From Candidatus Doudnabacteria bacterium (GTDB lineage: Bacteria > Patescibacteriota > Doudnabacteria > UBA920), in the NCBI GenBank assembly GCA_031291995.1, contig JARLHZ010000016.1, forward strand, positions 1 through 54,148: a stretch of DNA of 54,148 bases. The letters are read 5' to 3'. The notes beneath the pieces were generated by a model. That model saw only the letters and a list, made by a program, of their open reading frames with translations, was not told the origin of the DNA and ran no database searches. The first letter of the stretch is position 1. Each line of letters starts with the position of its first letter. Made by a program: the position numbers and the translations under genes. Positions 1 to 40,689 of this stretch are shown piece by piece.

Positions 1-105
1 CCAGAGCCGGAGACAGGCAATGCGGAAGTCAGGATTTGGCATCAGAACACCCTTACGGCGACCAAAACTATTCTGCTTAAAGACCTGCCCCAAGTCCATC
101 TTTGA
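1..105 (+). CDS. C-terminal tail of an unidentified protein (partial)
   Basis: An open frame enters from the left edge and runs 34 codons to TGA at 103-105. The tail reads EVRIWHQNTLTATK...LPQVHL and matches no family I recognise. A strong hairpin terminator follows 43 bases later, which supports a real gene end. It is the only plus-strand coding in the first 17 kb, so it converges on the minus-strand VOC/MFS genes. Too short to assign a function. Confidence 0.45.
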   Translation, partial: PEPETGNAEVRIWHQNTLTATKTILLKDLPQVHL

Positions 106-202: not shown

Positions 203-628
203 CTATTTAATTGGCCTGCTCCCTAAGTCCTGAAAAAACCTTAGTAGATAACCATCCGGATCTTGTACCAAAAATTGTTTATTACCAACTTCTTTATCGC
301 TCGCTCGGTACCATTTTTCTTCCATCTCGAAAAAAATCGGATGACCAGCTTGCTTAAAATTGTTATACAAGCTCTGCACGTTAGCAACTTCAATTTGAAA
401 ATGCATGCCACGACCAAAAGGTCTTTCTAATTTTCCAACATTCCAAGTGCGACTTTTTTCTGTCAGGCCTTCTATCATAAGGCAAGCCCCGTTCAACCCA
501 AGCATGGCGAAGTCCTCCTCTGGCCGATCATACAGAACGTCAAAACCAGCAAGTCTTGTATAAAAATCGAGACTCGATTTAAAATCCAGCACCTTAAGCT
601 CAGGAATTAATGTTGCTTTTCTAATCAT
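203..628 (-). CDS. VOC-family (glyoxalase/bleomycin-resistance fold) protein
   Basis: A 141-residue protein with the paired beta-alpha-beta-beta-beta layout of the vicinal oxygen chelate superfamily. The N-terminal half reads LDFYTRLAGFDVLYDRPEEDFAMLG and the C-terminal half ends FLVQDPDGYLLRFFQ, the usual closing strand. The length is normal for one-domain members related to bleomycin-binding proteins. The start overlaps the end of the upstream MFS gene by 8 bases, so the two are translationally coupled. VOC proteins of this type sequester or modify small toxic molecules, and a neighbouring efflux pump fits a resistance role. That role is inferred; the substrate is unknown. Confidence 0.8.
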   Translation of the reverse strand: MIRKATLIPELKVLDFKSSLDFYTRLAGFDVLYDRPEEDFAMLGLNGACLMIEGLTEKSRTWNVGKLERPFGRGMHFQIEVANVQSLYNNFKQAGHPIFFEMEEKWYRASDKEVGNKQFLVQDPDGYLLRFFQDLGSRPIK

Positions 629-1799
629 AATTTTTCACTACTTCCTTTTGATAATTTTTAAAGAGTCTCCAGTAGAGGTATACAACAGAAAGCGAAAGAG
701 TCTCGGTAATAATGATTGGGCCTTTTACTCCCAGACGATCGGCAACCAAACCGAATAGGTAAGCAAAAATTGCAAAAAAAATGTTCCCAAAAAATGAATT
801 GATCGAACCCATTGTAGCGCGTTGTTGATTGCTGAACTCCCTGTGCATCAATGCATTTAAAGCAATTGACGTAACACCAAATGCGATGGAAGTAAGAGCA
901 ATAAGGATTGGCGACCAAACCCCGGAGTATAGCACTGCTAAAACTGTAACTGCCATACCAATCACTTGTCCGACAATCAATACCTTGAATGAGAAAAACT
1001 TTTTTAAGATAGGTCCTGCTTGATGTGAACCAAGGAACGTAAATAAATTGTTCATGGCTTTTGAAATTCCCAGCGCCCAAACTGGCCATACCGTGCTAAT
1101 AAATGCCGGCATGAACTGGTTCTCAACTTCACCCATTCCGAAGTTTAAGATAGATGACAAGCTCAGGTCGCGAAGTTTATTGTTTTGTTTGAAGGCAATA
1201 AAAGACTCCCGTAAATGCGAGTAAACATTTCCGGAATTAGCGGCGCGCTGGATTTTTGGCTCGACAAGTTGGAAGCCAATAACAAGTGCAATCGCCAACG
1301 GGACAATAGAAAACCAAAAAATCCAGCTAAGCGAAAATCCAAACACAAAGGTGGCGATAATGGCTGAAGTCCCGAGACCCAACGGAATCATTGCATTGAT
1401 TTTCCCTAAATGCTCATCGAGTGTTTTCTGCTCGTTTGTTTCAGCCAGAGTGTCGTAAATGAGCGAGTCGTTATTGCCACTGAAAAGGGAATCCGAGAGC
1501 CCGGCAAAAATCGCTCCGATAGCAAGAAACCAAAATGAGCCGCCTATGGCATAGAAAGCAACACACAAAATGCTTGCCAGCACCCCAAACATCAATGTCT
1601 TTTTGCGACCGATTCTATCTGAATAAATACCAGTTGGAATCTCAAAAATGCACGTTGAAATTGAAAAAATTGAAAAAACCAAAAGAGCCAAGGCATAAGA
1701 CTTGGTCACTTGTGCAAAATAAACGATAGCGATTGGGTTATAGGGTTTAAAGCTCAAAAAGAAATTAAACCACTTCATCAATTTCAGATTTCTGTGCAT
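621..1799 (-). CDS. Major facilitator superfamily transporter
   Basis: A 392-residue hydrophobic protein with about 12 membrane segments. MFS motif A is visible after segment 2: GIYSDRIGRKKT, at about residues 57-68. The central cytoplasmic loop (about residues 182-200, VEPKIQRAANSGN) separates the two six-helix halves. It most resembles drug/metabolite:proton antiporters. The start at 1799 (MHRNLK) is the first ATG; MKWFNF seven codons later is an alternative. Its 3' end overlaps the VOC gene. The substrate cannot be read from sequence. Confidence 0.88.
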   Translation of the reverse strand: MHRNLKLMKWFNFFLSFKPYNPIAIVYFAQVTKSYALALLVFSIFSISTCIFEIPTGIYSDRIGRKKTLMFGVLASILCVAFYAIGGSFWFLAIGAIFAGLSDSLFSGNNDSLIYDTLAETNEQKTLDEHLGKINAMIPLGLGTSAIIATFVFGFSLSWIFWFSIVPLAIALVIGFQLVEPKIQRAANSGNVYSHLRESFIAFKQNNKLRDLSLSSILNFGMGEVENQFMPAFISTVWPVWALGISKAMNNLFTFLGSHQAGPILKKFFSFKVLIVGQVIGMAVTVLAVLYSGVWSPILIALTSIAFGVTSIALNALMHREFSNQQRATMGSINSFFGNIFFAIFAYLFGLVADRLGVKGPIIITETLSLSVVYLYWRLFKNYQKEVVKNYD

Positions 1800-1937
1800 A
1801 ACATTTTTGCTAACATAATTCTAAATTTCATGGCGCCAAGCTCAATTCTCATAGATGGCCAAAACCCTAGTTTGGTCAGGGCTTATAAGTAAAAACCATA
1901 AGGGAAAGAGATTCTTCTATTTATTATCTTAAAATTA

Positions 1938-2459
1938 TTAATGACCGATTGCCACCATAATCCTGTCGGCCATCTGTTGTGTGGTTTCTTCCGAATCAAT
2001 AGGAACTGCTCCGGATTTGAGCATATTATCCTCAAACTCTTTATACCAAGACAAAATATGTTCCTGTTCCGACTTGTCTTTGGCAAACTGGTTCTCCCCA
2101 TCGCGGGTGCTTAAGCGATGGATAAAAGTTTCTTCTTTGCAACGAAGTAGGAAAATCTTTTCAAACAGAGATTGAAAGTCGTTCTGATTGGAAGCCAGCC
2201 CGAGAACTGCGACATCTCCTGATTGTCCAGCTAAAAGCCCTTCCAACTTATCCTGATCGCATATCCATTCGTGAGCCTCCAGCCAGTCCTTGCCAATGCC
2301 GTATTGGTATTCAGCTCTTTGTTTGGTTTGCCTGTTTCTCCAATGACAAAGGTCAGAAATGGCATCAATATCAAAACAAACAACCCCCCGCTTGGCCAGC
2401 TCTTCTGTCAGGGTTGATTTTCCCGTACCCGAAACACCGGTAATGTAGATTTTACTCAT
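1938..2459 (-). CDS. Small P-loop kinase (shikimate/adenylate-kinase-like)
   Basis: A 173-residue protein opening MSKIYITGVSGTGKSTL, so the Walker A motif (GVSGTGKS) lies at residues 8-15. The following lines, CFDIDAISDLCHW and the late helix TTQQMADRI, are typical of small nucleotide or metabolite kinases. The substrate is not recognisable. It lies 9 bases downstream of the APH-like gene and is the last gene of the kinase cluster. The 138-base gap after it before the MFS gene has no clear terminator. The P-loop is certain; the chemistry is open. Confidence 0.72.
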   Translation of the reverse strand: MSKIYITGVSGTGKSTLTEELAKRGVVCFDIDAISDLCHWRNRQTKQRAEYQYGIGKDWLEAHEWICDQDKLEGLLAGQSGDVAVLGLASNQNDFQSLFEKIFLLRCKEETFIHRLSTRDGENQFAKDKSEQEHILSWYKEFEDNMLKSGAVPIDSEETTQQMADRIMVAIGH

Positions 2460-2468
2460 AGTGTTGCC

Positions 2469-3509
2469 TTAAGAAAAAAGGTAGTTATAGTCATTTAACT
2501 CCAAAGTTTTTATGGGGAACTTCATCCATTCTAGGGCCTTTGGCGATGACTGGTTTTTTAAATACCAATCCATCGTCCACAGAAGCATATAGAACATATA
2601 AGCCTTTAGCGCAATTTTAAGAAGATGATTCTCTCGCGGTAAATCAAGCTCACTTTTTCCGAAAGCTTTCCTGTATGCCCTCAGGCCTAAGTTAACCCTG
2701 CGTTTGTTATATTTCCCGGTGTTAATGCCCTTGTAGCGATAGCAAGACTGGCCAATAGTGCCAGCCAAGTCCGTAATGCGGCTGTCAAAACGAACCCAGT
2801 CAAAATCAAAGATCCCTGAAACCTTATCGCCGGAAAAATTAACATTGCCGGGGTGCAGGTCAAAATGGACTACTTGTTTTGGTAGTTTATCATAACCCGC
2901 CTTGTCCAGTTCTTTTTTATTTTCTTCAATAAATTTTAAAATGAATTTTCTATTTGCACTTAGCAATTTTCTGACATCTGAGTTAGGCATTCGATTAAGC
3001 AAGCCATTGAACAGCTTTGCGCCATTCTTTGCGTAATAGTATATTGGTCTGTTGTGTTTTATTTTAGTTTTGAAACCGGCTACAGTTTTTGTAAATTTTG
3101 CCGATGCTATAAAAAAATTGGCCAACTTTTTGTCGCTGAACCGGGTTAAATTGTTCCAGCTGGCTTGGGTTTTGCCAGGCATAAAATTCTGCAAAATGTA
3201 AAACCTTTTGTTATAGATAGTAATGTCCTTGCCTAGGTTATTTTGGATAGCATAAGGCGTCAATTTAAACCGCTTGTTTCTTAAATAATTTAAGACAGCA
3301 ATTTCCAATTTTAAGTGATGTATGGACTTTTTAGGTTCTGACTCCCGAAGCACAAACTGCTTCTTTAAGCCCTGAACAATAAAAATGTTATTATTGTTTG
3401 CAACTGTGTTTTTACTCAATCTGATTTTTTGCAGACCAAACCCGTAGCCCTCAAGGACTTTAAGAACTCTGATTTTTTCTTGTGATGTTAAAATTTTACC
3501 TTGGGCCAT
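2469..3509 (-). CDS. Aminoglycoside-phosphotransferase-fold kinase
   Basis: A 346-residue protein from the ATG at 3509. The catalytic loop HFDLHPGNV (about residues 215-223) and the magnesium motif FDFDW (about 234-238) are the signature of the APH/choline-kinase/homoserine-kinase-II fold. I chose the ATG of MAQGKI rather than the GTG 45 bases upstream: the GTG would overlap the previous gene by 35 bases, whereas the ATG starts 10 bases after its stop and follows AGAGGG. It belongs to a five-gene cluster of phosphate- or nucleotide-transferring enzymes. The substrate may be an antibiotic or a metabolite. Confidence 0.78.
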   Translation of the reverse strand: MAQGKILTSQEKIRVLKVLEGYGFGLQKIRLSKNTVANNNNIFIVQGLKKQFVLRESEPKKSIHHLKLEIAVLNYLRNKRFKLTPYAIQNNLGKDITIYNKRFYILQNFMPGKTQASWNNLTRFSDKKLANFFIASAKFTKTVAGFKTKIKHNRPIYYYAKNGAKLFNGLLNRMPNSDVRKLLSANRKFILKFIEENKKELDKAGYDKLPKQVVHFDLHPGNVNFSGDKVSGIFDFDWVRFDSRITDLAGTIGQSCYRYKGINTGKYNKRRVNLGLRAYRKAFGKSELDLPRENHLLKIALKAYMFYMLLWTMDWYLKNQSSPKALEWMKFPIKTLELNDYNYLFS

Positions 3510-3519
3510 TTCAATAAAA

Positions 3520-4614
3520 TTAATCCCTCTTATAGGCAAACTCAAGTTGCTCACAAAGTTTTAAATTCTCTACGACATCGGTGCTATCGGTAAATTGGTC
3601 AACAGAACCGATGTTGGTTTTAATGCCTTTGACTCTTGGATCTTTGATTACCTTTTTTATGGCCTCTGCAAAAACATCAGCGTGAATGACTAGGTACGGC
3701 CGACCGTAATAGCTACTCACTTTTGATGACAAAGGCTTAGTAATTTTTAATGCGTTATAATTTTTTGCTACAATTTCGTAAGCTTGAGCCAGCCACTTCT
3801 CCCTTTCCTTCCAATTTTTTGACACCAAAACTTTCCGTAACACTGGCGCTAAATTTTTGGAGATTTTAAGTGCGCCGAATGCCGCGCCAAACCATTTACT
3901 GTACGGGTAGTATCTCTTTTCCATTAAAAAGCAAAGCTTCATTATTTCCCTTACAATTCTGGCAGCAACTATCTGCGAACCAAGCTCATCGCCAACATCG
4001 CCAGCCCGTCCGACAAAGGCCTCTTCCTGCGAAATTTTAATCCACTGACAGGCTAGCATATAAAGCCAAACGTCTTTGGGGTAGTAGCTGAATTTTTCCC
4101 TGACTTTTTTCAATTCTCCCAAGCCGTCATAAAATACTTCACCGCTCACCATTTCCAAGAGCCGTTGTTGGGGAAACGTTAGCCAGTTTTCTACCGTGAT
4201 ATTTTTTGTTTGGTCAAACCTTAATCGTAATTCATAAAAAGATTTTACGGTATAAACATTGACCATGTGATCTACTGGGCCGGATGTAATTTTTATAGCA
4301 CGGCGGACACCATTTGGCGCCGGTTTGCTGTAGTTTGTTGAGTAACCCATAAAATCATAGGGTAAGTTGTTAGCTATAGCTTTATGAATTTTATCCTTTA
4401 ATTTCGGATAATCTTTTTCGCTGAGAAATATAAAAACCCGCGGTCCCCAATGGTGGTCCCGTGATATCTCCGTATCGTAACCCAAAACCTCACTACCCCA
4501 GCCAAACAGGGCGGCCGAGTATTTTAATTTTGAAAACTCTTTATCCAAAATTGGTTTGATTTCTTTTTGATAAAACAGTTTGCTTAATTCTAAGCCGGGA
4601 ATAAATTTTGTCAT
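3520..4614 (-). CDS. DUF4037-like putative nucleotidyltransferase
   Basis: A 364-residue protein. Near residue 40 it has FGWGSEVLGYDTEISRDHHW, the hallmark GS...D..SRDHHWG pattern of the DUF4037 family, a distant nucleotidyltransferase relative. The rest is helical with no other motif I can name. The start ATG overlaps the stop of the upstream kinase gene as ATGA, so the genes are translationally coupled. Family biochemistry is unknown, and adenylyl transfer is only suggested by the fold. Confidence 0.65.
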   Translation of the reverse strand: MTKFIPGLELSKLFYQKEIKPILDKEFSKLKYSAALFGWGSEVLGYDTEISRDHHWGPRVFIFLSEKDYPKLKDKIHKAIANNLPYDFMGYSTNYSKPAPNGVRRAIKITSGPVDHMVNVYTVKSFYELRLRFDQTKNITVENWLTFPQQRLLEMVSGEVFYDGLGELKKVREKFSYYPKDVWLYMLACQWIKISQEEAFVGRAGDVGDELGSQIVAARIVREIMKLCFLMEKRYYPYSKWFGAAFGALKISKNLAPVLRKVLVSKNWKEREKWLAQAYEIVAKNYNALKITKPLSSKVSSYYGRPYLVIHADVFAEAIKKVIKDPRVKGIKTNIGSVDQFTDSTDVVENLKLCEQLEFAYKRD

Positions 4615-5147
4615 ATATTTAATAATCCTTGATCCGTATCAATTAGTTTTTCTAATTCCGCAGCATCAACCTCCGGCGAGTTTATATTCTGATATACATA
4701 CCCTGGCCAAGATTCGATTTTGTCACGATCCTGCTGATCTTTGTATAAATCGATAAGCGAATGCCGCCCTCTTTGCTCAAGCCTTCGTTTCCGTAGCGCA
4801 AAAGGCACGTTTAAGTGATAAAGATATACCGGCACTTTTTTAGTCACCTTACTGCTATAGCGCAAAACACCCTCTTTTATTAGGAACCTGTCTCCAATTC
4901 CGATAACTATAAAGCCCTCAGCGAGAAATTTATTTAAATCACTGGTAAAATCAGCTCTGGCCTTAAGCAAATCATCCTCTTTTTGATGGTCATTATCCCA
5001 AATCCATGTTGGGCAAAATTTTTCTATATATGTGTCCAAGTCTAGCAAGATTGATTTTTTTCCGTGCGCAATAAAGTCCTCAACTAATATCTTGCCAAGC
5101 GTATTCTTTCCTGATGCCGGCCCTCCATCAATTAATATCAATTTCAT
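4611..5147 (-). CDS. Small P-loop kinase
   Basis: A 178-residue protein from the ATG at 5147, opening MKLILIDGGPASGKNT with the Walker A motif at residues 8-16. Later lines include a lid-like stretch RKRRLEQRGRHS, as in nucleotide and metabolite kinases. An upstream in-frame start would add 18 residues that run into the previous gene, so the internal ATG is preferred; it begins 10 bases after that gene ends. Asn replaces the more usual Ser/Thr before the last Thr of the P-loop. Substrate unknown. Confidence 0.7.
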   Translation of the reverse strand: MKLILIDGGPASGKNTLGKILVEDFIAHGKKSILLDLDTYIEKFCPTWIWDNDHQKEDDLLKARADFTSDLNKFLAEGFIVIGIGDRFLIKEGVLRYSSKVTKKVPVYLYHLNVPFALRKRRLEQRGRHSLIDLYKDQQDRDKIESWPGYVYQNINSPEVDAAELEKLIDTDQGLLNI

Positions 5148-5157
5148 AAAAAATATA

Positions 5158-5736
5158 TTATATTCCTTTTGCTTCAAAGTCCTCAACCGATTTAACGCCA
5201 TTCTCTAAAACGGCAGTATAAATATCAAAACTTTTTATGTTGTCTTTGTACTTTACGCCGTCAAAATAAGCCTCTTTAATTTTGAGAATTATTTCCGCTT
5301 TTTTAGGATCAGCGGCTAACAGTGGTTCAAACTTATTTATGGAATCGCGCACTAGATGGGCATAACTTTCATCAGGCTTTAGGTACCAAACATCAAACTT
5401 CCAGTTTTTGTCCTCGTGCGGTATTATCAACTCCCAAAAAAATCCAAGCGGCATATCATAAGCAGGATAATTTTGATAATCAGCTGTGCCGATTGTCTGA
5501 AAAATATCCTTATCAATTAACTCTTTGGTTATTTGATGGGCCTTATTTTTCTCAATGCTGTCTGATATAACAAAGAGGTCGATATCGCGACGGTACATAA
5601 GCTTCAAACGAAGGCTGCCGATTTTTTCAACCTTCCCCAATTTTGAAAAGACTTCCACAACGCCTGTTTTGGTTATAATTTCCTCTGCTGACTTGCAAAA
5701 ATTTTGGGAATTTTGGATTAGGTTATTTTCAGTCAT
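5158..5736 (-). CDS. Nucleotidyltransferase-fold protein
   Basis: A 192-residue protein with IGSLRLKLMYRRDIDLFV at about residues 38-55. This is the G-S-x(n)-D-x-D core of the polymerase-beta-like nucleotidyltransferase fold seen in aminoglycoside adenylyltransferases. A WKFDVWYLKP strand supplies the third acidic position (FD). It is the first gene of the kinase cluster, about 65 bases downstream of Int B. It may be a resistance enzyme or a tRNA/metabolite-modifying enzyme; neither can be chosen here. Confidence 0.65.
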   Translation of the reverse strand: MTENNLIQNSQNFCKSAEEIITKTGVVEVFSKLGKVEKIGSLRLKLMYRRDIDLFVISDSIEKNKAHQITKELIDKDIFQTIGTADYQNYPAYDMPLGFFWELIIPHEDKNWKFDVWYLKPDESYAHLVRDSINKFEPLLAADPKKAEIILKIKEAYFDGVKYKDNIKSFDIYTAVLENGVKSVEDFEAKGI

Positions 5737-5800: not shown

Positions 5801-6790
5801 CTAATAATTCAAAAACTTTCCATGCGCTTCCTTGGCCTTGGTTTTATCTAGACCCAAGTAATAACGGCAGGTGGTCTCGAGCCGGTCATGGCCGAGGATT
5901 TCTTTTACGTGAGAAATTGGGCAGCCGTTAAATAAAAGGTTGGTGGCCATGGTATGCCGCAGAATGTGCGGCGTTATTTTTTTAGTAATGCCAGCTTTCC
6001 TGGCCTGCCAGCTGAAGGCCTTACTAATGTCGGACTTGGTTAAGCGCGTGCGGTTTTGGGTTATAAACAGCGCCGGGTTATTGTCCTTGCGATGCTCAAG
6101 ATAATGCTTAATCCAGTCCAAGGATCTCTGGTTAAAAAATACCGTGCGCTCCTTGCTGCCCTTGCCGATAATTTTGGCCTCGGCCTTTTCAAAGTCTATG
6201 CTGTCGCGGTTTAAAGACAGGGCTTCGGAAATTCTCATACCGGAGCCGAGCAGAACCTCGACCAGCGTCCGGAACCTTAAGCCGTTCATCCTGACTCCGG
6301 GCTTACGCAAATGGCCGGTGTGCTTTTTTTCTATGCTGATGCTGTTTACGAACTGCTCAATCTCCTCGTTGGTTAAAAACAGCACGTCGCGGCGCCTCCG
6401 CTTGGGCGACTTTATTCTTTTGCTATCAAGCACCGGCAGATCTAAAAAGTCCTTGCAGTATTTTAAAAAACTTTTAGTGGCAAACACAATGGAATAAATC
6501 CTGGCCTCGCTGGCCCCTCTGGCCAGGACTTTTTGTTTGACCTCGGTTATGTGGATGAGGTTTAGTTGGTTTATGGGCAAATCGCCGATATACCGGATGA
6601 CCCAATGCAGGCAGTCCCCGTATTTATCCACTGTGCCGGGAGAGAACGACAGCTCAAACTGGCCGTATTTTAAAAACCCCGGAATCAGCTCGCTGAATTT
6701 CGGGCAGGTTGGCGCCTGTGGGCTGGCCAAAATTGGCACGGCCAAAGTTCCTACATTTGTATTTGATTCTAAGGCAATCCCCGGATACAT
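5801..6790 (-). CDS. Tyrosine recombinase Int B
   Basis: A 329-residue integrase of the XerC/D type. The N-terminal SAM-like DNA-binding domain is at about residues 45-140. The catalytic domain has Arg in GMRISEA, Lys in GKGSKER, HILRH, GHD and the nucleophile Tyr in CRYYLG. I chose the ATG at 6790 (MYPGIALES) because it aligns with the start of Int A and follows the conserved GCGAGGCTTTTT. An in-frame ATG at 6835 lies inside the leader. Int B is strongly similar to Int A along its whole length and lies next to a copy of the 16S 3' end. It probably integrates a second, downstream element at that site. Confidence 0.92.
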   Translation of the reverse strand: MYPGIALESNTNVGTLAVPILASPQAPTCPKFSELIPGFLKYGQFELSFSPGTVDKYGDCLHWVIRYIGDLPINQLNLIHITEVKQKVLARGASEARIYSIVFATKSFLKYCKDFLDLPVLDSKRIKSPKRRRRDVLFLTNEEIEQFVNSISIEKKHTGHLRKPGVRMNGLRFRTLVEVLLGSGMRISEALSLNRDSIDFEKAEAKIIGKGSKERTVFFNQRSLDWIKHYLEHRKDNNPALFITQNRTRLTKSDISKAFSWQARKAGITKKITPHILRHTMATNLLFNGCPISHVKEILGHDRLETTCRYYLGLDKTKAKEAHGKFLNY

Positions 6791-6827
6791 AAAAAGCCTC
6801 GCGTCAATTGATGACACAAGGCTCTTT
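6791..6827 (-). terminator. Terminator/SD-sequestering hairpin abutting the Int B start
   Basis: Read on the minus strand, AGCCT...GTCA pairs with TGAC...AGGCT and is followed by TTTTT and then directly by the ATG. The 3' arm contains GCGAGG, the only candidate ribosome-binding site of Int B. The same layout, with compensatory base changes, precedes Int A. Confidence 0.75.
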
Positions 6828-7052
6828 AATTGCAATTTCGTTAAGTTCCCTTAACGGCTAAATAGTGACCCCGAGCATTAAAGGCGCTCAGGCTCCGCAT
6901 AATCTTGCGATTATATGGAGAAGAATTACCGTACAAAACCGTTTACGTTAACGTCGTTTCTTAGAGTCAGGATTGCGTTAAAAATCGAAATAATTAACGA
7001 CGACCAACAGAATGCCGCAAATAGTAAGATCGAAATCCATACTTTTGCGGAA
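6828..7052 (-). promoter_or_regulatory. Structured leader of Int B, homologous to the Int A leader
   Basis: On the minus strand this holds, in order: a block CATTCCG (7048-7054), GGTTTTGTAC (6931-6940), a hairpin CTCCATATAATC/GATTATGCGGAG, a hairpin CTGAGC/GCTCGG, and a hairpin CGTTAAG/CTTAACG. The terminator hairpin follows. The first two blocks are complementary to the 16S leader. The hairpins are preserved in the Int A leader with different but still pairing bases. I see no promoter. Confidence 0.7.
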
Positions 7053-7072
7053 TGTTCCTTAGAAAGGAGGTG
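7053..7072. repeat. Attachment-site core, element-distal copy
   Basis: TGTTCCTTAGAAAGGAGGTG is identical to 40670-40689, where it is the 3' end of 16S rRNA (anti-Shine-Dalgarno region). Here it stands alone, with no rRNA on its right side. This is the pattern of a duplicated attachment core at the far end of an integrated element. Confidence 0.85.
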
Positions 7073-9351: not shown

Positions 9352-10317
9352 TTAATCGTATTTTAAATATTTTTCGTGCGCTTCTTTTAGTTTCTTTTTG
9401 TCGGTGCCAAGATAATATTTCGCCGTTGTGGAGATCGTGGAATGTCCGAGGATATCTTTGATAAACATAATGTCGGCGCCTTGGTGGAGCATTAGAGTGG
9501 CCATGCTGTGGCGCAAAATATGGGGCGTAACTTTTTTCTTGATACCGGCTTTTGCAGCGTAACGCCTGAATTCTTTGCCCAAATCGTGCCGTGTGAGCCG
9601 ATTGGAAGTACCAAAGGCTACAAACAATGCAGGCTCGGAATCGGTACGCTGTTTGAGATATTTATTAATCCATTCAATGGTACGCGGTTTTAGATATACC
9701 GTCCGCTCCTTATTGCCCTTACCAATAATATTTACTTCCAAATTCTTTAAATCCAAATCTTGGCGGTTCAAAGAAAGAGCTTCACCGATACGCATACCGG
9801 TGGCCAAAAGCAATTCCATAAGAGCCCGCATCCGCAAACCGTAAATGCTGTCCACATTAATGCTGTTGAGCAGTTGCTGGATTTCTTCCTTGTCTAAAAA
9901 TGTAACCTGACGTTTTGGTAACTTCATAGGCTTAATGTCCTCAATATTAATAATTGTAGCAATTTTTTGAATTTCCTGGCAGTAAGCCAAAAATTTTCTT
10001 AAGGCGAAAAGAATACTATTCGTCCTTGACTCCCCGGCTCCGCGTTCCTGAATCCGCTGCTTTAGCAGGGTTATATCTTCCAGACATAGGATAGACGGAC
10101 TCAACACTTTCGGTAAATGCTTCATTACCCACTTTAGAGACTCTCCATATTTTTGCACCGTCTGCGGTGACAATTTAAGATCGTAAGCTGCATAGCCTAT
10201 AAACTTCGGGGTCAACTCTAAAAAAGTCTTGTCTGGCGACTTACGCGGGGCTGTGAGTTCAGTAGCGCCAAAAGGCCTGTTCAAAAGCACAGAGCTGTCT
10301 AAGATGGCTGTATCCAT
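9352..10317 (-). CDS. Tyrosine recombinase Int C
   Basis: A 321-residue XerC/D-like recombinase. It has Arg in GMRIGEA, Lys in GKGNKER, HILRHSMA, GHS and Tyr in AKYYLG. It is clearly related to Int A and Int B but more diverged, and lacks their leader and 16S-end flank. It lies 30 bases downstream of the primase-helicase gene in the same orientation, so it is likely expressed with replication genes. A role in resolving element multimers, or as a relic of an older inserted element, are both possible. Confidence 0.9.
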   Translation of the reverse strand: MDTAILDSSVLLNRPFGATELTAPRKSPDKTFLELTPKFIGYAAYDLKLSPQTVQKYGESLKWVMKHLPKVLSPSILCLEDITLLKQRIQERGAGESRTNSILFALRKFLAYCQEIQKIATIINIEDIKPMKLPKRQVTFLDKEEIQQLLNSINVDSIYGLRMRALMELLLATGMRIGEALSLNRQDLDLKNLEVNIIGKGNKERTVYLKPRTIEWINKYLKQRTDSEPALFVAFGTSNRLTRHDLGKEFRRYAAKAGIKKKVTPHILRHSMATLMLHQGADIMFIKDILGHSTISTTAKYYLGTDKKKLKEAHEKYLKYD

Positions 10318-26709: not shown

Positions 26710-26878
26710 TCAAAAAGGGCCACCCGCTTGCCCCACCTAACCTTTCGGTTAGGGACCTCTATAAAGGCTAAGACAAGACAGGTGACCGTCTTCGCTTTAT
26801 AGAGGATTTATGCCATGCCCGTAACTTACGCGGCGGGTTTAGGCAAACTTATTCAGTTTTACTGCTTATATTATAGCA
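26710..26878 (-). ncRNA. Structured leader RNA or small RNA with extended -10 promoter
   Basis: The minus-strand extended -10 TGCTATAAT (26870-26878) would start RNA near 26862. Downstream are three hairpins: GCC..CCCG/CGGG..GGC (26812-26844), an 11-bp perfect stem CCTCTATAAAG/CTTTATAGAGG (26756-26805) with an inner AAGAC/GTCTT, and CCTAACC/GGTTAGG (26736-26753) with a 4-base loop. A weak GGGC/GCCC plus T5 precedes the cysteine-rich gene. No known RNA class is recognised. Confidence 0.6.
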
Positions 26879-28783: not shown

Positions 28784-29884
28784 TTAGGGTTGCTTCAATT
28801 CTTTAAGTAAAACATCCCAACCTATTCTGCCGGCTGTATAATCTGCAAAAATTTTATCCCAGCCCTCATTTGGAAGAAAACCGCTGTATTCAAGTTTAAT
28901 TTCATGGTCAAAATTATTTTTTGCTCTTAGTGTTTCTAGCACTTGTTTGTTAAATTGATCCACTAAATACTTTCTCCAATCATTGAGAGTTTTTTTATAT
29001 CTAATTACAGTGTAAACATCATAATAGGTGGTTACGGCCACATCCTGAGAAAGTAGCGACTTAAACGCGTAACCTATTTCCCCCTTAATAATATCATGTT
29101 TTCGCTTTTCTTTTTTATAATTGGTGTACCTAGTGAATTCTATCGGTAAATAGCGCTCGGTTGGCTCGTTGCTTCCTTTTCCTTGTTTGATACCGAACAT
29201 CCAAAATTTTTTTATACTGGGATAATAGCCTAAAGTTTTTTGTACGGGAGATCTTTTTGACAAAGGATTTTCATAATACAACACTTCATCCCTGTCAAAT
29301 TCATATTTTCTTGGTTTCAACTGTCCTTCCCAATCCCTAAAACGGTTGTTAGTAAGATAGGTTAACCAACTGTATTTTTGTTGATAAGTAACACTGCCTC
29401 CTATACCACTTACCCTTTTCATTGTTTCGGTAGGGAGGAAATTAAAATAAACCGGCAAAATTAATTTTTTACCTTTTAACTCAACCTCTCCCCAATCTAC
29501 TCCACAAAAGCATTTGTTTAAAGTTAACACCTCTCGGCAAGCCCAAGCAAGATACCCAGCAATATTGTATCCAAAAGAAAATAGATTATCTCTGGCAACA
29601 AGGCCGGAAAAAAAATGCCTGTTTAAAATATCCGGTAAACCCGCAACTTCTGTCTTTATAGTAAAATAATCATGTTCATAAGTGACATATCCTGGACGGT
29701 CATCTACTGGCCTTGCACGGGACGGAAAGAGTGACTCGGTTATACCTTCAATTTCTGAACGGCATCCAAAGTTAACATCACCGGCCACCCTCTCAAGTTG
29801 AGAATACCCTTTAACGAAATTTAAAAAGTAATCGGGTTGCTTAAATCCTTTGCTGGATTGGGCTTTGCTGCTATGTTTTTGCAT
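28784..29884 (-). CDS. Unidentified 366-residue operon protein
   Basis: A soluble, aromatic-rich protein with no motif I recognise. The N-terminus is basic and Ser-rich (MQKHSSKAQSSKG). The middle includes RHFFSGLVARDNLFSFGYNIAGYLAW and KPRKYEFDRDEVLYYENP. It overlaps the 831-residue membrane-protein gene by 14 bases, so the two are translationally coupled and probably act together. It is a candidate new component of the methyltransferase/helicase system. Confidence 0.7.
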   Translation of the reverse strand: MQKHSSKAQSSKGFKQPDYFLNFVKGYSQLERVAGDVNFGCRSEIEGITESLFPSRARPVDDRPGYVTYEHDYFTIKTEVAGLPDILNRHFFSGLVARDNLFSFGYNIAGYLAWACREVLTLNKCFCGVDWGEVELKGKKLILPVYFNFLPTETMKRVSGIGGSVTYQQKYSWLTYLTNNRFRDWEGQLKPRKYEFDRDEVLYYENPLSKRSPVQKTLGYYPSIKKFWMFGIKQGKGSNEPTERYLPIEFTRYTNYKKEKRKHDIIKGEIGYAFKSLLSQDVAVTTYYDVYTVIRYKKTLNDWRKYLVDQFNKQVLETLRAKNNFDHEIKLEYSGFLPNEGWDKIFADYTAGRIGWDVLLKELKQP

Positions 29885-32366
29885 AGGCGTAATTTGCCAA
29901 AATATTTACCATTTTATTTAATAAATCCTGTCTTTCTTTTACATATTCTACAAAAGCCTCAATGCTATCTTCTTCATAGTTTGAAACTCCATAGCTTAAC
30001 TCCCTAATCAACTTGCTTGGGTGGGCCGCCACCTCCTGTAATCCTGAATAAAAACGGACATTATCATAAGTTTTTGGTAGCAGACTAATTTTATACATAA
30101 TTTGTCCAAACCAATGATTATAGCGCGAAACTTCGCGGCTGATAAGTTTTAATTTTAGATTTAAGCCACCAAGGCTTTGAGGATCAGATAGTGTCTCTAC
30201 AGCCTTAGCAAAAAAGCCAGGTTTATATATTCTTTCCATCTCGTATATATACTTGGTAACAAAACTCCAGTCTTGTTCAAACTCTGCTGTCAAATAACAA
30301 ACGCCGCCCGTAATCACAATGATCCTGTTCGTTGTTACTAATTTTTCAACATCGGTTTCCTTATCATTTAATATGGTCAACATCATAGACAATGCTCTAA
30401 CGGAACCAGCAAACAACTTTTTTTGTTTTTCTATAATTGCTGGAAAGATAATCTTTTCTAACTGCTCAAGCATCTCATAGTCAACCAAGTCCTTTTTTGA
30501 TAGGCTTAATAAGTACCCGATGGTCATTTTAGAAAAAATTTTGTCCGATTCTTCCTCTGCTATTTCATATTTTTCTAAAAATATTAACCGTGCCAACCAT
30601 TCCATTCTAATCTTTAACCATTGAACAATCTGCTTTCCTTGCCCCACATTAACCAATCCAAGCATTATCTTATCTTGATTTTCTAAAATCATCCTAAAAT
30701 ATTTAGCCGTCATCGTTTTTTCTGTTTGCTTTAAGTCATCTATTATTTCCTTTTTTAACAAAGGCGCGGGTGTTATTATCTTGCCTTCAAATGATTGCTC
30801 TGCCTCTAAGCGATACCAATAATCCTTAATTTTTTCGTAAAAAATTGTTGGCAGATTGGCAGTTAGAACCTGTCTTTCTTTTATCCCTAAAATGGAATTT
30901 GTAGCTATAAGTTTGCCAACCCAACTTTCAACTTTTGAATAATCACCAAACCCGTCTAATATACTCAGGCTAATTGCAAAGTAGTCATTTACATATTCGT
31001 CTGACTCTATTTCTTTATTAGAGTCAATTTTTGGATAAAGATAAATAAAATTATTAAAAAACTTTTCTGCTAGTTCCATTTCCTGGGCTTCAAATAAACC
31101 AGGAAGAATTTTTTGGTATCTGTTAAAATTATCTCGGGAATAATTGCCCACCAATATTGTTTTATAAGCTTCAATTATACTAAGTAGAAGTGCGCTCCCC
31201 TCCAGGGTTTTTTCTACCTTTTGTTCTATACCATTTATTATTTTTTCCACTTTATTCTCAAACCAGGCGAAATCTGATTCTGTAAGATAAAGCGGCCCTT
31301 GCCCGCGCATCTCATAATTCAATTTTAAATTTATGGCAACCATATTGTCCGATTTAACCTGTTTATATTTTGTGGCGGCCCACCAGCCCGTGTCTTTATC
31401 TATATACCTTTTCTTTGCAGAGTAGTTATTCATAACATAAGCCAAAACCGGCAAAGCATATTGTGCGTTGGTATAGTTACCCGCTTTCCACAAGTCTTCA
31501 AATAGCTGCTCAATTAGCGTCAGGCTATTACGCGCCTTTGTTTGGGCATTTTGAATCACACTCCAGCTGTAAAAAGTAATTTTTTTGCGGTTGGTAGCAA
31601 GGCTTATAGAATCTATTATGTCGCTTCCTAATTTTTCAAATAGACGCTTAGGCTTTAGGGATAAAATATAGTGATCTTTAAAAATAAGTATCCCTAAGAT
31701 TGAAACAGTTGCCAAAATAATGACTGCGGGAAAGCTAAAAAAGGGCTGGCTATTCAAAAACTTTATTTTTATCAAAACAAAAAGTGCATACAAGTCCGTA
31801 AAGACCAAAAGCTTAAAAAAGAAATTTGTTACTGTGTCTTGATTAATGAAATTTGAGACTTCGGCTGAATATTTTTCCGTAGTCAATTGGAGGCCAACTG
31901 CGTATAGGGCAAAAATTAATCCTAAAATAGCGGATATGGCACCAATAATTATTTCTAGAGCGAGCTGGAAAAAATTACTATCGGGGAAGGTGAAGCGAGG
32001 AATGTCCGTAAATTGGCCAATTGATCTTAGATGAAATAAGTTCAACTCTTTAATTTGTATATAGTAATGCTGAAGCGCGGAATCAAAAAAGAGTGAAAAC
32101 ACAGCAAGGGCAAACAATTCCCAAAGGAGTTTTTTTGAGTGCTTTAATATTTGTAAGTCAATGGTATATTCTGTTCTTTCTCTATCCTCCTGGGCCTTCC
32201 ATACCCTAGCCCGTTCTTTTAGGTTTTGATAACTATGGTAAAAAACGCCCGCTATCCGGCCAGAATAGAGAGCGAAAAAACTCGGTTCTTTTCCTGGTTC
32301 AAAATCATCCCTATCTTTAGGGAAAATTTTATACCAAAAATATTGAATTATCCTAATCAAAGACAT
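29871..32366 (-). CDS. Large membrane protein, DUF2254-like N-terminal half
   Basis: An 831-residue protein. Membrane segments lie at about 80-100, 135-160, 180-205 and 212-232. The stretch LGLIFALYAVGLQLTTEKYSAEV resembles the FS...V.LQL.S..FSPR core of DUF2254 proteins, a weak pattern match. Residues 240-831 are a long helical cytosolic domain, perhaps a TPR-like solenoid. The gene starts 2 bases after the methyltransferase stop. A membrane effector paired with a DNA-sensing helicase and methylase would fit an abortive-infection design, but this is inference. Confidence 0.65.
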   Translation of the reverse strand: MSLIRIIQYFWYKIFPKDRDDFEPGKEPSFFALYSGRIAGVFYHSYQNLKERARVWKAQEDRERTEYTIDLQILKHSKKLLWELFALAVFSLFFDSALQHYYIQIKELNLFHLRSIGQFTDIPRFTFPDSNFFQLALEIIIGAISAILGLIFALYAVGLQLTTEKYSAEVSNFINQDTVTNFFFKLLVFTDLYALFVLIKIKFLNSQPFFSFPAVIILATVSILGILIFKDHYILSLKPKRLFEKLGSDIIDSISLATNRKKITFYSWSVIQNAQTKARNSLTLIEQLFEDLWKAGNYTNAQYALPVLAYVMNNYSAKKRYIDKDTGWWAATKYKQVKSDNMVAINLKLNYEMRGQGPLYLTESDFAWFENKVEKIINGIEQKVEKTLEGSALLLSIIEAYKTILVGNYSRDNFNRYQKILPGLFEAQEMELAEKFFNNFIYLYPKIDSNKEIESDEYVNDYFAISLSILDGFGDYSKVESWVGKLIATNSILGIKERQVLTANLPTIFYEKIKDYWYRLEAEQSFEGKIITPAPLLKKEIIDDLKQTEKTMTAKYFRMILENQDKIMLGLVNVGQGKQIVQWLKIRMEWLARLIFLEKYEIAEEESDKIFSKMTIGYLLSLSKKDLVDYEMLEQLEKIIFPAIIEKQKKLFAGSVRALSMMLTILNDKETDVEKLVTTNRIIVITGGVCYLTAEFEQDWSFVTKYIYEMERIYKPGFFAKAVETLSDPQSLGGLNLKLKLISREVSRYNHWFGQIMYKISLLPKTYDNVRFYSGLQEVAAHPSKLIRELSYGVSNYEEDSIEAFVEYVKERQDLLNKMVNILANYAYAKT

Positions 32367-32368
32367 AA

Positions 32369-35300
32369 TTAAAAATTTCCTACAATTTTAATTTCCTCAC
32401 CGGTTAGGCCATAAAGTTTATAAACCATTTTGTCTATCTGTTCTTCAAGGTCGTGGACTTTGGCTTTTTTGGCGGCATTGTTTAAATAATCGTCTGATTT
32501 CGTTATAACTAAAATTATATCAACAATCTCGTTAAACTGCTTTTGTATATTTTCACCGACAATTTTAATTGGTATTTCAGAAACGGGATTTCCTATAAGT
32601 TCTAATATTTCACCTTTTCTTTTACCTCGGTGATATAACCATAGATAATAAAGTTTAGAATTTAATAACGCCAAAATATATTTTAAATCTATATTTTTAT
32701 AGTCTCCTTTTTGAGTTATAAAAAAAACATCCGACATGGCATACCAAGTAACCTCATTGTAGCCAAATGTATTTGTATTGCTTCTTTGCGGGAACACGAT
32801 TTTAGGACCGTCAAAGTTTAATTTTCTACTTGTGGACATAACGTACCAGTATCCGTTATTGAAAGCAGATTCTAGTGTGCCAGTTCTCGGCCTGTCGGTT
32901 AAAAGTTTTTCAAATCTTTTTAAATGCTTTTTTATTTTTGGGTAGGCATTTAAATCCGGCCTATCTGTATACCTCAAATTTATCAAGTTCAGCTCATTTT
33001 TTGTATTTGTATAAAACTTTTTTATATCGGAATTTTTAAACAAGGGCTTAATTATTTTAGTCTCGTCATTAGAAAAACCATTATCCTTCACTTCCTGGTT
33101 TGTTAAAATGAAGATCCCTTCGCCTGTACTCGCGTCATTTATTTTATATTTACTTTTTTTATCCGCGCTCAACTTATCGGCTCCGGCAAAAACTCCGTTA
33201 TTAACATTACAAATGGTGCCTAGTAAGGCTCCTTGTAGTTTTATTTTGTTTAACAAAATTTGAATTGGGTCACTATTATTTGACGAAGCTCCGCTTAATC
33301 TAATATAATATTCATCGCCGTCGAACAAATCTTTTTGTTTAACGTCAAAATATTCAGTTTCATTATCTTGCCAGCTCACTATTTCACTAAGGATTTTTGA
33401 ATTAGCAATCCCCGCTTGCTTTGTTATAGCGGTTTTTGCCATAATTTGATCATTTTGCCCTTTTGATAAAATGGTGACCATATTATGCTGCCCCATTGCT
33501 GATTCAAAGATTCTCAAATCGTTAAAATTAATTAGCCTTCTGATTATTGTTCTGTTTCTAAAATCCTCTCGTAATTTTTTCGCACCCAAAGCTGTTGGGT
33601 AGTAATCTGTTGTTATAAAAGCTATCTGCGAATTTACATTTCCTAAATTTAGGGCTAAATGAAAAAAGAAATAGAAAAAATCCATTTTCCCCAGATAAAA
33701 CTTACCAAGAAAATCACTATTTTTTATCTCTCTAAATGATTCCTTATGGCCTTTTTCGCCAATATAGGGTGGGTTTGCTATCAAAACATCAAAGCCGCCT
33801 TTCTGTTGAAATACTTCAGCAAAGTTAAGTTTCCAAAGGAAAAATGGCTTCGTATTAGTTTGCTTTAGTTGCTCAAGCTTTTTTAACTCGGAGGTTTTTT
33901 TATTTTCTTCCAGGCTTGCTTCAATCAAATCCCATTCCAGATTTTCAATTTTTCTCTTTAATTCTTCTTTTGTTCGTTTGTTGGTTTCTTCAAAGAATTT
34001 TTTATGCAGATTTTCCAGCTCATCCCTAATCTGCTTTGACTCTGCAACGCTGGCAAACAGATCTTTTTGCTCAATACTACTGTTGTTTGGTAGTCGCTTT
34101 TTCTCTTTAAGGATTGCCCGGAGCTGAGTTTCCATATTAACGACTTCCAGCGGCTTAACAGCTTCTTTGTTATTCATCCATTCCGGATTTTTCATGTAAA
34201 ATTTTAACAGCTCACCTTGCAAAGAAATTATTTTTTGGTTGTCCGGCTGGAATATTCGCGCATCAATGATTGGCGATTCAAGGAGCTTCTCATCAAAAAG
34301 TTTTATACCCTCAAACTCTTCCAGGAGGCTGTTGCCCTGCATAATCTTGTAATCCAGGTTTGGCAATGGCTTAATGTCCTTAATATCCTCTTCGTCCACA
34401 ATTAAAGACAGCCAAAGCCGCAACTTGGCTATTTCCACGGCTCCGGGGTCAATATCCACACCATAGAGCGAATTTTGAATGCAGTCGCGCTTAAAGCTAT
34501 ATATAGTCCTACTTTCCTGGTACGCGGCCATTTGTTCCGCGTGCGGAGCGAGTAGATAATTAGAAAGCACGTTCCTGGCTTTTACAATCTCGCTCATCAT
34601 ACCGACGGGGAAAGCGCCGGACCCAATGGCTGGATCGCAGACTTTAATATTCGCCAGTTTGTAATCTATGTCGGCCGCGCTATGATAAATATTTTTTGAA
34701 AGCTGATGGTAGTAGGTTTCCGTTTCTTTACCAAGTTTCTCTACCTGGGCTTCGTTCTCGGCTATCAACTCCCCATATTTAACCAACTGCTCAATTTCTT
34801 CCTTTGGTATGCTATTTTCAAATTCAGTAGCCAGATAGTTAATTAGGCTTTGCTGGCACATATAATGGACGATTTCGCGCGGTGTGTAATAAGTGCCTTT
34901 GGACTTGCGGTCCTTAACTTCCAGTAAGTTTTCAAATACTTTCCCGAGCATTTCCGGGTCAACGGCTACCTCTTTTTCCAAGGGCTCATCTTCCTTAACC
35001 GTAAAGTTATAACGGTCAAAAATATCCAAAATGCCGGTGCCGATGTCTCCGGTTTTTAAATCTTTAACTTCGTTTGAAAATAACTCATTGGGCAACTCAA
35101 TGTCCGTATGCACCCAGTCATAATTCCTTAATGGATCAAAAAGTCCGCCGTTTAAAAAAGGAATTTTGCAGTTAAACCTGTCCGACCAGTCATCCTGGCG
35201 CTCCACAGCCAGGGCGTTATAGAACAGCGGCTCCAAAACATCATTAAAGAAATTTTTGTACTCACAGTAACGCTTTACGTACAGCCGGCGCAAAAAGTCT

Positions 35301-36115
35301 TTTGGCCCAGTGCCCCATTCGCTATCCCTTTCTACACCAAACCAGCCCTTTTTTTGCAGGAAGTAGAGGAAAACAATCTGGCCTAAAAGTTTTTTGGCAA
35401 AGTCTGCTGTTTCGACAGCTTTACTGGAAAATTCCTGTTTTATTTTAAAATCGGTTTCCAAAACTTTATCCAAAGCCTCTTTGACCTCAAGGAATAACTC
35501 ACGGTATTTATTAAAGAACTCCTTAGTAACAATTTCAATGTTAAATGCCGTTTCAAGATCGGAAAGTAATGGATTATTTTGGTCATCCGCCAGTATCGGC
35601 AAAAGCTGTTTTTGGGCGGTATGGCTGTTTTCATTCTTGCCAACCAGGAAAGAAAAGCGTTTGGCTGGGGTTAACTCTTTGGTGACTTTGCTTTTGCCTT
35701 TGTCATCCTTGCCCAGCTGGTAATCCATTTTGATAAGCGAAAAACGCCAATCCTCGGATTCGTCAGTATAAAAGGCCACAACGGCCGCGTCTTTAAGCTC
35801 GCCTCCTCTGCTGCCATTTAAATACCACGCAACGAAATTACGCTGCATGGTTCGGGCGTGTTCAATGGATTTTACTTTTTTGAGACGAACTATTAGGATG
35901 TCTAGCCTATTGCCTTCCGCGTCCGTATATTTGCCTAAGCGTTCTAGGGTATGGATGAATGGCTGATAAGCCTGCGGCACAGTGTTGCCCCGATACACAA
36001 AAGTCGCAACTTCAATTTTGTTGAAAAGCTCTTTTATGAATTTGGTAAAACGTTCTTTATCAAAAGAATTTTGGAATGTTTCCCGGACAATTCTTTTCGC
36101 GGCATTTGTGTCCAT
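32369..36115 (-). CDS. Eco57I/PglX-like adenine DNA methyltransferase (type IIG-like)
   Basis: A 1248-residue protein. The AdoMet site is VCDPAIGSGAFPVG (492-505), after TYYTPREIVHYMC (409-420). The catalytic motif is NPPY (781-784), so it is an N6-adenine methylase of gamma order. A charged coiled-coil-like insert spans about 660-750. The last 270 residues look like a target-recognition domain. The N-terminal 250 residues include LDILIVRLKK (71-80), which might be a PD-(D/E)xK strand. It starts 10 bases after the PLD-helicase gene. Together they resemble DNA-modification-based defence modules (type IIG, BREX or DISARM parts) without the other marker genes. Confidence 0.88.
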   Translation of the reverse strand: MDTNAAKRIVRETFQNSFDKERFTKFIKELFNKIEVATFVYRGNTVPQAYQPFIHTLERLGKYTDAEGNRLDILIVRLKKVKSIEHARTMQRNFVAWYLNGSRGGELKDAAVVAFYTDESEDWRFSLIKMDYQLGKDDKGKSKVTKELTPAKRFSFLVGKNENSHTAQKQLLPILADDQNNPLLSDLETAFNIEIVTKEFFNKYRELFLEVKEALDKVLETDFKIKQEFSSKAVETADFAKKLLGQIVFLYFLQKKGWFGVERDSEWGTGPKDFLRRLYVKRYCEYKNFFNDVLEPLFYNALAVERQDDWSDRFNCKIPFLNGGLFDPLRNYDWVHTDIELPNELFSNEVKDLKTGDIGTGILDIFDRYNFTVKEDEPLEKEVAVDPEMLGKVFENLLEVKDRKSKGTYYTPREIVHYMCQQSLINYLATEFENSIPKEEIEQLVKYGELIAENEAQVEKLGKETETYYHQLSKNIYHSAADIDYKLANIKVCDPAIGSGAFPVGMMSEIVKARNVLSNYLLAPHAEQMAAYQESRTIYSFKRDCIQNSLYGVDIDPGAVEIAKLRLWLSLIVDEEDIKDIKPLPNLDYKIMQGNSLLEEFEGIKLFDEKLLESPIIDARIFQPDNQKIISLQGELLKFYMKNPEWMNNKEAVKPLEVVNMETQLRAILKEKKRLPNNSSIEQKDLFASVAESKQIRDELENLHKKFFEETNKRTKEELKRKIENLEWDLIEASLEENKKTSELKKLEQLKQTNTKPFFLWKLNFAEVFQQKGGFDVLIANPPYIGEKGHKESFREIKNSDFLGKFYLGKMDFFYFFFHLALNLGNVNSQIAFITTDYYPTALGAKKLREDFRNRTIIRRLINFNDLRIFESAMGQHNMVTILSKGQNDQIMAKTAITKQAGIANSKILSEIVSWQDNETEYFDVKQKDLFDGDEYYIRLSGASSNNSDPIQILLNKIKLQGALLGTICNVNNGVFAGADKLSADKKSKYKINDASTGEGIFILTNQEVKDNGFSNDETKIIKPLFKNSDIKKFYTNTKNELNLINLRYTDRPDLNAYPKIKKHLKRFEKLLTDRPRTGTLESAFNNGYWYVMSTSRKLNFDGPKIVFPQRSNTNTFGYNEVTWYAMSDVFFITQKGDYKNIDLKYILALLNSKLYYLWLYHRGKRKGEILELIGNPVSEIPIKIVGENIQKQFNEIVDIILVITKSDDYLNNAAKKAKVHDLEEQIDKMVYKLYGLTGEEIKIVGNF

Positions 36116-36125
36116 ATCATTTGAA

Positions 36126-39100: not shown

Positions 39101-39311
39101 CATAAACTTTTTGATCAGTATTTATGCCAATAAGGACACGGACTTTGTCGGTGTGTGCAAGAGACTTATAAATAGCGTGAAAACCGCTTGTATAAAAATA
39201 GCCAACCAAGGCGTCAAAAAATTGAGTATCCTTGATTAAAACTTTAAAGCGATCTAAAAGATTCCGTTCCTTTTCATTAGTGATAAAGGTTAGGTCGTGG
39301 TTTGTGTTCAT
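36126..39311 (-). CDS. PLD-nuclease/SNF2-family helicase fusion
   Basis: A 1061-residue protein. The N-terminal phospholipase-D-like domain has one HKD half-site: H138-A-K140 and GSSN (159-162). A SF2 helicase follows, with Walker A DVVGLGKT (280-287), DEAH (354-357), VSATPLNNSP and C-terminal lobe motifs TTEILAEGVNL and QRVGRINR. One HKD half-site implies a dimeric nuclease. It heads a tight operon of about ten genes. The likely role is restriction or surveillance of DNA together with the adjacent methylase. Confidence 0.9.
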   Translation of the reverse strand: MNTNHDLTFITNEKERNLLDRFKVLIKDTQFFDALVGYFYTSGFHAIYKSLAHTDKVRVLIGINTDQKVYDSIQEAKEEQQEMNFSHAEVKETFSGLVTGELEKSEDSREVEDGVTKFIEWLKSGKLEIKAYPSANIHAKLYIMTFAEGDRDAGRVITGSSNFTRAGLIDNLEFNVELKTRADYDYALEKFNELWANAVDVSEKYIETIENKTWLSNTITPYELYLKFLYEYFKEKINTDQESIFKKYLPENFLDLEYQTEAVKDAKAKLEEYGGVFIADVVGLGKTYISAMLAQQLDGRSLVIAPPVLLDEENPGSWKNVFSDFKVHADYQSLGKLDALVQKGTEKYKNIFIDEAHRFRNETNFTYEKLAQVCRGKRIILVSATPLNNSPKDILGLIKLFQKSKKSTIPNVADLDSFFGNLEKKLKNLDRQKDREKYLEIVKSNAQEIRDKVLKYLMVRRTRNEIIKYFEDDLIKQKLKFPDVEKPEAVFYELDENEDKVFNETINLLLNKFKYSRYIPYLYYKGEKNQSEEMAQTNMRKFLKILMVKRLESSFYAFKQSLRRFIHSYEQFIGEFDKGSVYVSKKYTNKIFEFLEDGNDDAVQKLIDEDKATRLAAKDFEAQFKNDLEKDLEVLKQISKLWDSVNRDPKLLTFIKILSENQILKDNKLIIFTESKETADYLEKNLREKFGSQVIAFSGASSSIVREKVIQNFDAKVRFPKDEYRLLITTEILAEGVNLHRSCVVINYDIPWNPTRLIQRVGRINRVDTKFPKIYTFNFFPTVQSNNLLKLKEAAEYKIQAFIEMLGADARLLTEGEEIKSHDLFRRLTSKETLTQEGEAEDSDLKYLKVIRDLRDNQPDMFEKIKRLPKKARTARANKDKGNALLTYFRKGKIQKFYLADISAANELDFVQAAKTLEATADTKQEKLETDFYQLLEFNKKEFQFATTDQAVELATKAGRDNASMVLRYLKSKQIKDFKGYTDEDEAYIKKLIKLLEEGGLPKQTTKVLVQALKEETNPLKILGILKTNIAEEFFQETLAENSAKTSGPREVILSEFLTAK

Positions 39312-40416: not shown

Positions 40417-40453
40417 AAAAAGCCTCGCGCCAGTTAATGGTACGAGACTTTTT
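40417..40453 (-). terminator. Terminator/SD-sequestering hairpin abutting the Int A start
   Basis: On the minus strand AGTCTCG..CCA pairs with TGG..CGAGGCT and is followed by T5 and the start codon. GAGG in the 3' arm is the only ribosome site. Base changes relative to the Int B copy keep the pairing. Confidence 0.78.
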
Positions 40454-40669: not shown

Positions 40670-40689
40670 TGTTCCTTAGAAAGGAGGTG
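40670..40689. repeat. Attachment-site core at the 16S 3' end
   Basis: TGTTCCTTAGAAAGGAGGTG, identical to 7053-7072. On the minus strand it contains CACCTCCTTTCT, the anti-Shine-Dalgarno end of 16S rRNA. The crossover must lie within these 20 bases if the rRNA is to stay intact. Confidence 0.88.

Follow-up and report, generated by a model that had tools for sequence, protein, structure and literature searches.

Introduction

A contig of Candidatus Doudnabacteria carries two related tyrosine recombinase genes, each beside a copy of the 3' end of the 16S rRNA gene, while only one 16S gene is seen and no 23S gene follows it. What arranged the locus in this way? The initial annotation suggested that a 33.6-kb element had inserted into or beside an older element downstream, represented by the recombinase Int B, and that 16S had lost its 23S neighbor as a result. 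Here, we examine this interpretation in the window, which is the whole of contig C31 (54,148 bp), taken from an assembly of 39 contigs and 1,493,676 bp (genome G000), and in related genomes. The host is probably an ultra-small bacterium; the small genomes sampled from its phylum and the sequence inserted in its 16S gene suggest Patescibacteria.

Results

Two intact recombinases share one 16S-end site

The features that define the problem are:

40682-43041, minus strand: 16S rRNA gene, the only one seen
40670-40689, minus strand: core copy 1, at the true 16S 3' end
39448-40416, minus strand: Int A, tyrosine recombinase of 322 codons
7073-40669, strand not applicable: element A, 33.6 kb between the cores
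9352-10317, minus strand: Int C, third related recombinase, inside element A (47% to Int A)
7053-7072, minus strand: core copy 2, the distal junction of element A
5801-6835, minus strand: Int B, intact tyrosine recombinase in an ORF of 344 codons

As first annotated, Int B indeed adjoins a second copy of the 16S end in the way that Int A adjoins the first, with 20-bp cores at 7053-7072 and 40670-40689. The core sequence, TGTTCCTTAGAAAGGAGGTG, comprises 12 nt from the very end of 16S, with the anti-Shine-Dalgarno sequence among them, and 8 nt of trailer; 18 of its 20 bases are conserved 16S end and trailer start, common to relatives. The two copies are identical (20/20) and flank element A as direct repeats, one of which completes the 16S gene. 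A search of the entire 1.49-Mb assembly, with up to three mismatches allowed, recovered these two copies and no third. A viral contig bearing an 18-bp stretch of the core was set aside, since the stretch lies in an unrelated phage region and was interpreted there as a ribosome-binding site.

Int B matches the Pfam family Phage_integrase (PF00589, E 9.2e-38) and is 61% identical to Int A. Translation likely begins at ATG 6790, as a TTG start further upstream would precede the terminator-like hairpin described below. Residues R201, K225, H290, R293, H316, and Y325/326, which we take to be catalytic, are invariant across Int A, Int B, and Int C, and Int B, which keeps them, displays no sign of decay. 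Differences between Int A and Int B over 316 codons amount to 0.29, 0.20, and 0.57 at the first, second, and third codon positions, respectively. Both genes are intact and under purifying selection. A tree of Int A, Int B, Int C, and the recombinases of genomes G010 and G306 (see below) gave no firm branching order, and searches of viral, plasmid, phage, and reference-genome sequences yielded integrases of at most 38% identity, or none. Int C, located 2.3 kb from the distal junction of element A, is accompanied by no core, trailer, or hairpin.

Besides Int A and Int C, element A encodes a DnaG-like primase, an N4/N6 methylase, RadC, a Zeta toxin, and a NERD protein, as well as a type IIG restriction-methylation protein and an HKD/SNF2 helicase, whose NCBIfam matches both fall below the curated cut-offs. 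The latter two belong to the following block:

28784-39311: defence-like block with the HKD/SNF2 helicase, the type IIG restriction-methylation protein, a DUF2254-like membrane protein, and an unknown

The stretch behind the 16S gene of G010 encodes a DrmD-like helicase, a type IIG protein, a SIR2-like protein, and an AAA protein, and we infer defence cargo in both genomes from these profile matches. No relaxase was found among the element A proteins scanned with Pfam (a subset of the ORFs), and in a PHROGs scan of seven proteins, likewise a subset, only integrase and primase matched.

Each integrase gene lies behind a 16S-type trailer

The "same leader" that had been noted ahead of both integrase genes is real, and it turns out to be a 16S 3' trailer plus a terminator-like hairpin:

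43389-43410, minus strand: 16S leader arm, pairing with trailers A and B
40417-40669, minus strand: trailer A, directly behind the 16S gene (helix arm 40475-40496)
40415-40455, minus strand: terminator-like hairpin A, immediately ahead of the start codon of Int A (-21 kcal/mol, z -4.3)
6836-7052, minus strand: trailer B, a 16S-type 3' trailer beside core copy 2 (helix arm 6850-6871)
6790-6828, minus strand: terminator-like hairpin B; UUUUU and then the int AUG come immediately after it (-27.2 kcal/mol, z -5.6)

Trailers A and B can each pair with the 16S leader of their own genome at 20 of 22 positions. The duplex between the trailer B arm and the leader has a predicted energy of -30.1 kcal/mol and that of the trailer A box -28.8, the strongest local duplex of trailer A involving a different segment. 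Folding of the whole-leader duplex was uninformative, and pairing was assessed locally against controls. In this genome, energy by itself is weak evidence because shuffled trailers come close (down to -27.8, vs -31.4 for trailer A), and the weight is therefore placed on covariation and on controls in which one strand is slid along the other. Leader and trailer form standard pairs at 163 of 176 positions in all eight genomes (8/8) for which a leader was found, the 16S gene of the remaining four of 12 being cut by a contig end. Both sides have changed in 6 of the 22 helix columns, and slid strands give 40-74 pairs of 152-168. Swapping leaders and trailers among relatives reduces pairing from 20.4 to 19.5 of 22; swapped pairs thus fit almost equally, which argues for a leader-trailer box that is conserved and not species-specific.

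A trailer of the same type directly follows 16S in 10 of 11 family relatives, where it is succeeded by other genes and no integrase lies behind 16S; this empty-site comparison is made with family relatives of other species. Further support comes from G010, which belongs to another genus of the same family and has an integrase 59-61% identical, with the same trailer type and hairpin, directly behind its 16S gene. In A, B, and G010 alike, a strong hairpin (z -3.9 in G010) leads into UUUUU and immediately into the int AUG. Simple consensus scans of both leaders called no terminator and no promoter, missing hairpins A and B, so that the hairpin claim is founded on folding and not on a pattern scan. 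In another relative (locus L036, G017), the trailer has a partly element-type distal half and a terminator-like hairpin, with no integrase in the ~3.2 kb behind 16S; this trailer is perhaps the scar of a lost element.

According to PMC10250234, disruption of the leader-trailer helix in E. coli abolishes translation activity. Insertion at the exact 16S 3' end would remove the 3' strand of this helix, and elements that bring one along could hence be tolerated.

A similar element in another family

A search of 379 genomes with an integrase profile (three genomes at E 1e-60) led to G306, which belongs to another family of the same phylum. Its element spans 23.8 kb at the 16S end between flanking repeats identical at 29 of 30 positions, with two integrase genes, one adjoining the far repeat on its inner side and the other 1.8 kb from 16S; a tRNA cluster lies farther out. 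Element A is similar in having Int A and Int C close to its two ends. On the same leader segment, the 16S-adjacent trailer of G306 reaches -31.7 and the displaced trailer -34.5 kcal/mol, while their shuffled versions (12 each) average -22.7 and -19.3 and go no lower than -29.7 and -22.5, respectively. The displaced trailer fits better, as would be expected if it were the original one of the host. Because the G306 element is independent of that in G000, elements at the 16S 3' end with a replacement maturation tail appear to recur, although rarely in this survey.

A 15-bp site pattern is present in 157 of 379 phylum genomes, and G000 and G306 are the only ones with two copies on one contig. Close integrases are likewise rare, being present in four of 22 family genomes with a cut-off of E 1e-40 and in two of 49 genomes of the order with one of E 1e-55. 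Second copies on separate contigs in G043, G066, and G209 were rejected as candidates, with no relative of Int A in the loci fetched and no evidence of an element; that of G209 is itself a 16S end. Isolated 16S-end patterns away from 16S and without integrase occur in locus L093 (G043) near 9474 and in locus L095 (G066) near 7704.

The left end of the contig

Two features occupy the region to the left of Int B:

203-5736, minus strand: probable element B cargo (ORFs, Pfam)
1-105, plus strand: 3' end of a multi-copy transposase gene, at the contig break

The first ~140 bp of the window recur at 98-100% at the ends of C30, C15, and C18 and near the end of C26, and internal copies of the transposase gene encode a 420-aa protein with the same terminal residues. 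As the contig starts inside this multi-copy gene, it cannot be extended leftward, and the far end of element B lies out of view. The 203-5736 segment encodes a glyoxalase-like protein, an MFS protein, a P-loop kinase, an APH-family phosphotransferase, a DUF4037 protein, a KTI12/AAA_18 kinase, and one protein without a Pfam match. The genes share one strand. A tblastn comparison with the DNA downstream of 16S in 11 relatives recovered none of them, and it is on this absence that the segment is assigned, as probable cargo, to element B. Placing the left end by synteny was abandoned: a gene that lies several kb downstream of 16S in relatives is found here on C16 among pilus-type genes, at a locus with no core or trailer match, so gene order is not conserved.

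16S and 23S are probably unlinked by ancestry

The absence of 23S behind 16S in the window, as initially annotated, is confirmed, yet its attribution to the insertion does not hold. That an element split a once-continuous 16S-23S operon has in its favor just this absence, and 23S and 5S lie together on contig C7, behind ligA-like, channel-like, and other cellular genes and preceded by a promoter-like sequence (read by eye). Moreover, Rfam scans of 3.2 to 16.6 kb of 16S-downstream DNA detected no 23S in 11 of 11 family relatives, including 10 without an integrase there. With 0/11 relatives showing 23S in this position, we reject insertion as the cause of the split and regard it as extremely improbable that the operon was ever continuous up to the arrival of an element. 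Given the location of 23S on another contig behind host genes and the lack of any relative with 23S behind 16S, the two genes were probably unlinked ancestrally. A linked 16S-23S operon does occur elsewhere in the phylum, in G066. A 23S gene missing beside 16S need not, then, mean a disrupted operon.

Discussion

Proposed history of the locus

Based on the above data, we propose that two elements, B and then A, probably stand in tandem at the 16S 3' end, each integrase being associated with a substitute 16S trailer. In this proposal, element B, an older integrative element represented by Int B, would have entered the 3' end of the only 16S gene seen, and element A (33.6 kb, with Int A) would have entered later at the same site, between 16S and element B. 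Each int gene would travel behind a substitute trailer made up of a half-site that supplies the final 12 nt of 16S, the 3' helix arm, small hairpins, and a hairpin resembling a terminator, with a U-run that directly adjoins the start codon of int. Integration would sever 16S from its own trailer, which the element trailer would replace, such that the pre-16S helix could form and maturation proceed. The observations behind this proposal are the cores, the intact integrases, the trailers with their potential pairing, the lack of 23S behind 16S in relatives, and the G306 element. The order of arrival, membership of 203-5736 in element B, excision and integration, and use of trailer A in the cell are what we infer from them. 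The tandem arrangement suggested at the outset thus stands as the best reading, supported though unproven, given two intact divergent integrases that share one 16S-end site, each behind its own core and 16S-type trailer.

The locus may, more tentatively, represent a recurrent class of elements, probably of the Patescibacteria, whose att site would be the anti-Shine-Dalgarno end of the only 16S gene and which would carry an exchangeable pre-16S maturation trailer. As the int start codon abuts the trailer terminator, transcription reading through from the rRNA promoter might be the sole source of int expression. A newcomer ahead of the resident element would in that event cut off and freeze Int B, and ribosome maturation would come to depend on a mobile RNA.

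Alternative explanations

Int B could instead be an isolated relic, or a resident gene, that remained next to a displaced 16S trailer when the rest of the older element was lost; element A would then be the only true element. The lack of a third core within three mismatches and the ordinary metabolic and transfer-enzyme types encoded at 203-5736, with no replication genes, would fit this idea. However, Int B is intact and retains its putative catalytic residues, trailer B keeps both helix arm and hairpin, and Int B is a resident gene in no relative examined, and we therefore consider a relic unlikely. An assembly chimera, or a recent local duplication of the int-trailer block, might be suspected in an assembly as fragmented as this one (39 contigs), but the A and B blocks differ at 33% of bases and their proteins at 39%, and G010 and G306 independently show the arrangement; this explanation is very improbable.

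A more serious alternative concerns the point of crossover, which might lie within the trailer, at an 18-bp block X, and not at the 16S end:

40553-40570, minus strand: block X, first copy
6929-6946, minus strand: block X, second copy, the alternative crossover site

Core copy 2 and the proximal part of trailer B would in that case be the far end of element A, and 16S would have kept its proximal host trailer. Indeed, clear similarity between the A and B copies extends from Int to block X and no further. From core to X, trailer A is 86% identical to the trailer of G007, which has no integrase there, and 63% to trailer B; the part that follows, as far as the helix box, is 88% identical to trailer B and 49% to G007. 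Trailer A is accordingly not simply element-derived, its proximal half being host-like and its distal half element-like, with the break at X. On the other hand, the G306 repeat sits at the 16S end itself and the trailers beyond it are unlike; where the trailer starts, AAGGAA is followed by C in 3 of 3 Int-linked trailers and in 0 of 10 without an integrase; and later homologous exchange within the trailer would yield the same mosaic. The G306 case favors a 16S-end crossover, leaving crossover at block X as a possibility of rather low probability, and we retain tandem integration at the 16S end as the preferred reading.

Relation to known systems

The proposed elements resemble ICEs, IMEs, and genomic islands in the 3' ends of tRNA or housekeeping genes, which likewise have a tyrosine integrase at one junction and short direct repeats, one of them restoring the 3' end of the target gene. 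Unlike in those cases, the element targets the 3' end of a 16S rRNA gene, the only one seen, and restoration would also involve a divergent trailer of ~220 nt, which pairs with RNA located 5' of 16S. Entry into gene 3' ends and tandem accretion are already known, as the excerpted text of an IME review attests (PMC5704250); this text names tRNA and protein genes as sites, and the term "16S" occurs in it 0 times. It also describes tandem accretion of ICEs, IMEs, and CIMEs, in which two elements with divergent integrases occupy one att site, the newcomer lying between the target and the old element. The present case differs in its 16S target and in that the outer limit of the older element lies beyond the contig.

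Insertion sequences or introns are found in the 16S genes of small, probable CPR genomes, and the 16S gene studied here has one as well. In the excerpt of PMC11270868, the insertions in CPR 16S genes are intragenic introns or intervening sequences, frequently accompanied by LAGLIDADG proteins, and "integrase" is mentioned 0 times. Element A cannot be classed as an rRNA intron or insertion sequence of this kind, as it is located outside the gene, from the 16S 3' end to the second core. Genomes with unlinked rRNA genes present the same separation of 16S from 23S-5S, which here is apparently family-wide and explains the missing 23S without an element. The flanks of pre-16S are complementary here as in the leader-trailer helix treated in PMC10250234, with ~20 pairs and covariation; the difference from the usual helix is that its 3' strand is carried by a mobile element.

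Our literature search found no description of the 16S 3' end as an integration site, which is limited evidence, as subscription papers lie mostly outside its scope; nor is 16S-end integration described in the excerpts of PMC11270868, PMC5704250, PMC8997704, and PMC10250234. The new part is the substitute trailer. Site-specific elements usually restore their target by an identical repeat, whereas the part lost here lies outside mature 16S, being the 3' strand of a helix that E. coli cannot do without. If our proposal is correct, a mobile element supplies RNA needed for ribosome building, tying host viability to the element, and excision or exchange of the element would amount to a direct test of leader-trailer function. 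As element A and the G010 stretch carry restriction- and defence-like genes, the 16S-end site may also be a port for defence islands in small genomes.

Other features of the window

The 16S gene carries its insertion at ~41160-41990; the ORF in it presumably encodes a LAGLIDADG protein, perhaps in two frames (41269-41556 and 41514-41945). A LOOT RNA (Rfam RF03000, 62 bits) lies inside element A at 26717-26845 on the minus strand. Long inverted repeats are located at 48545-48674 and 49079-49158, the first having relatives on C7 and on a G010 contig. The right contig end (54030-54148) is a short repeat that matches the start of C35 at 99%, which is likely a contig join.
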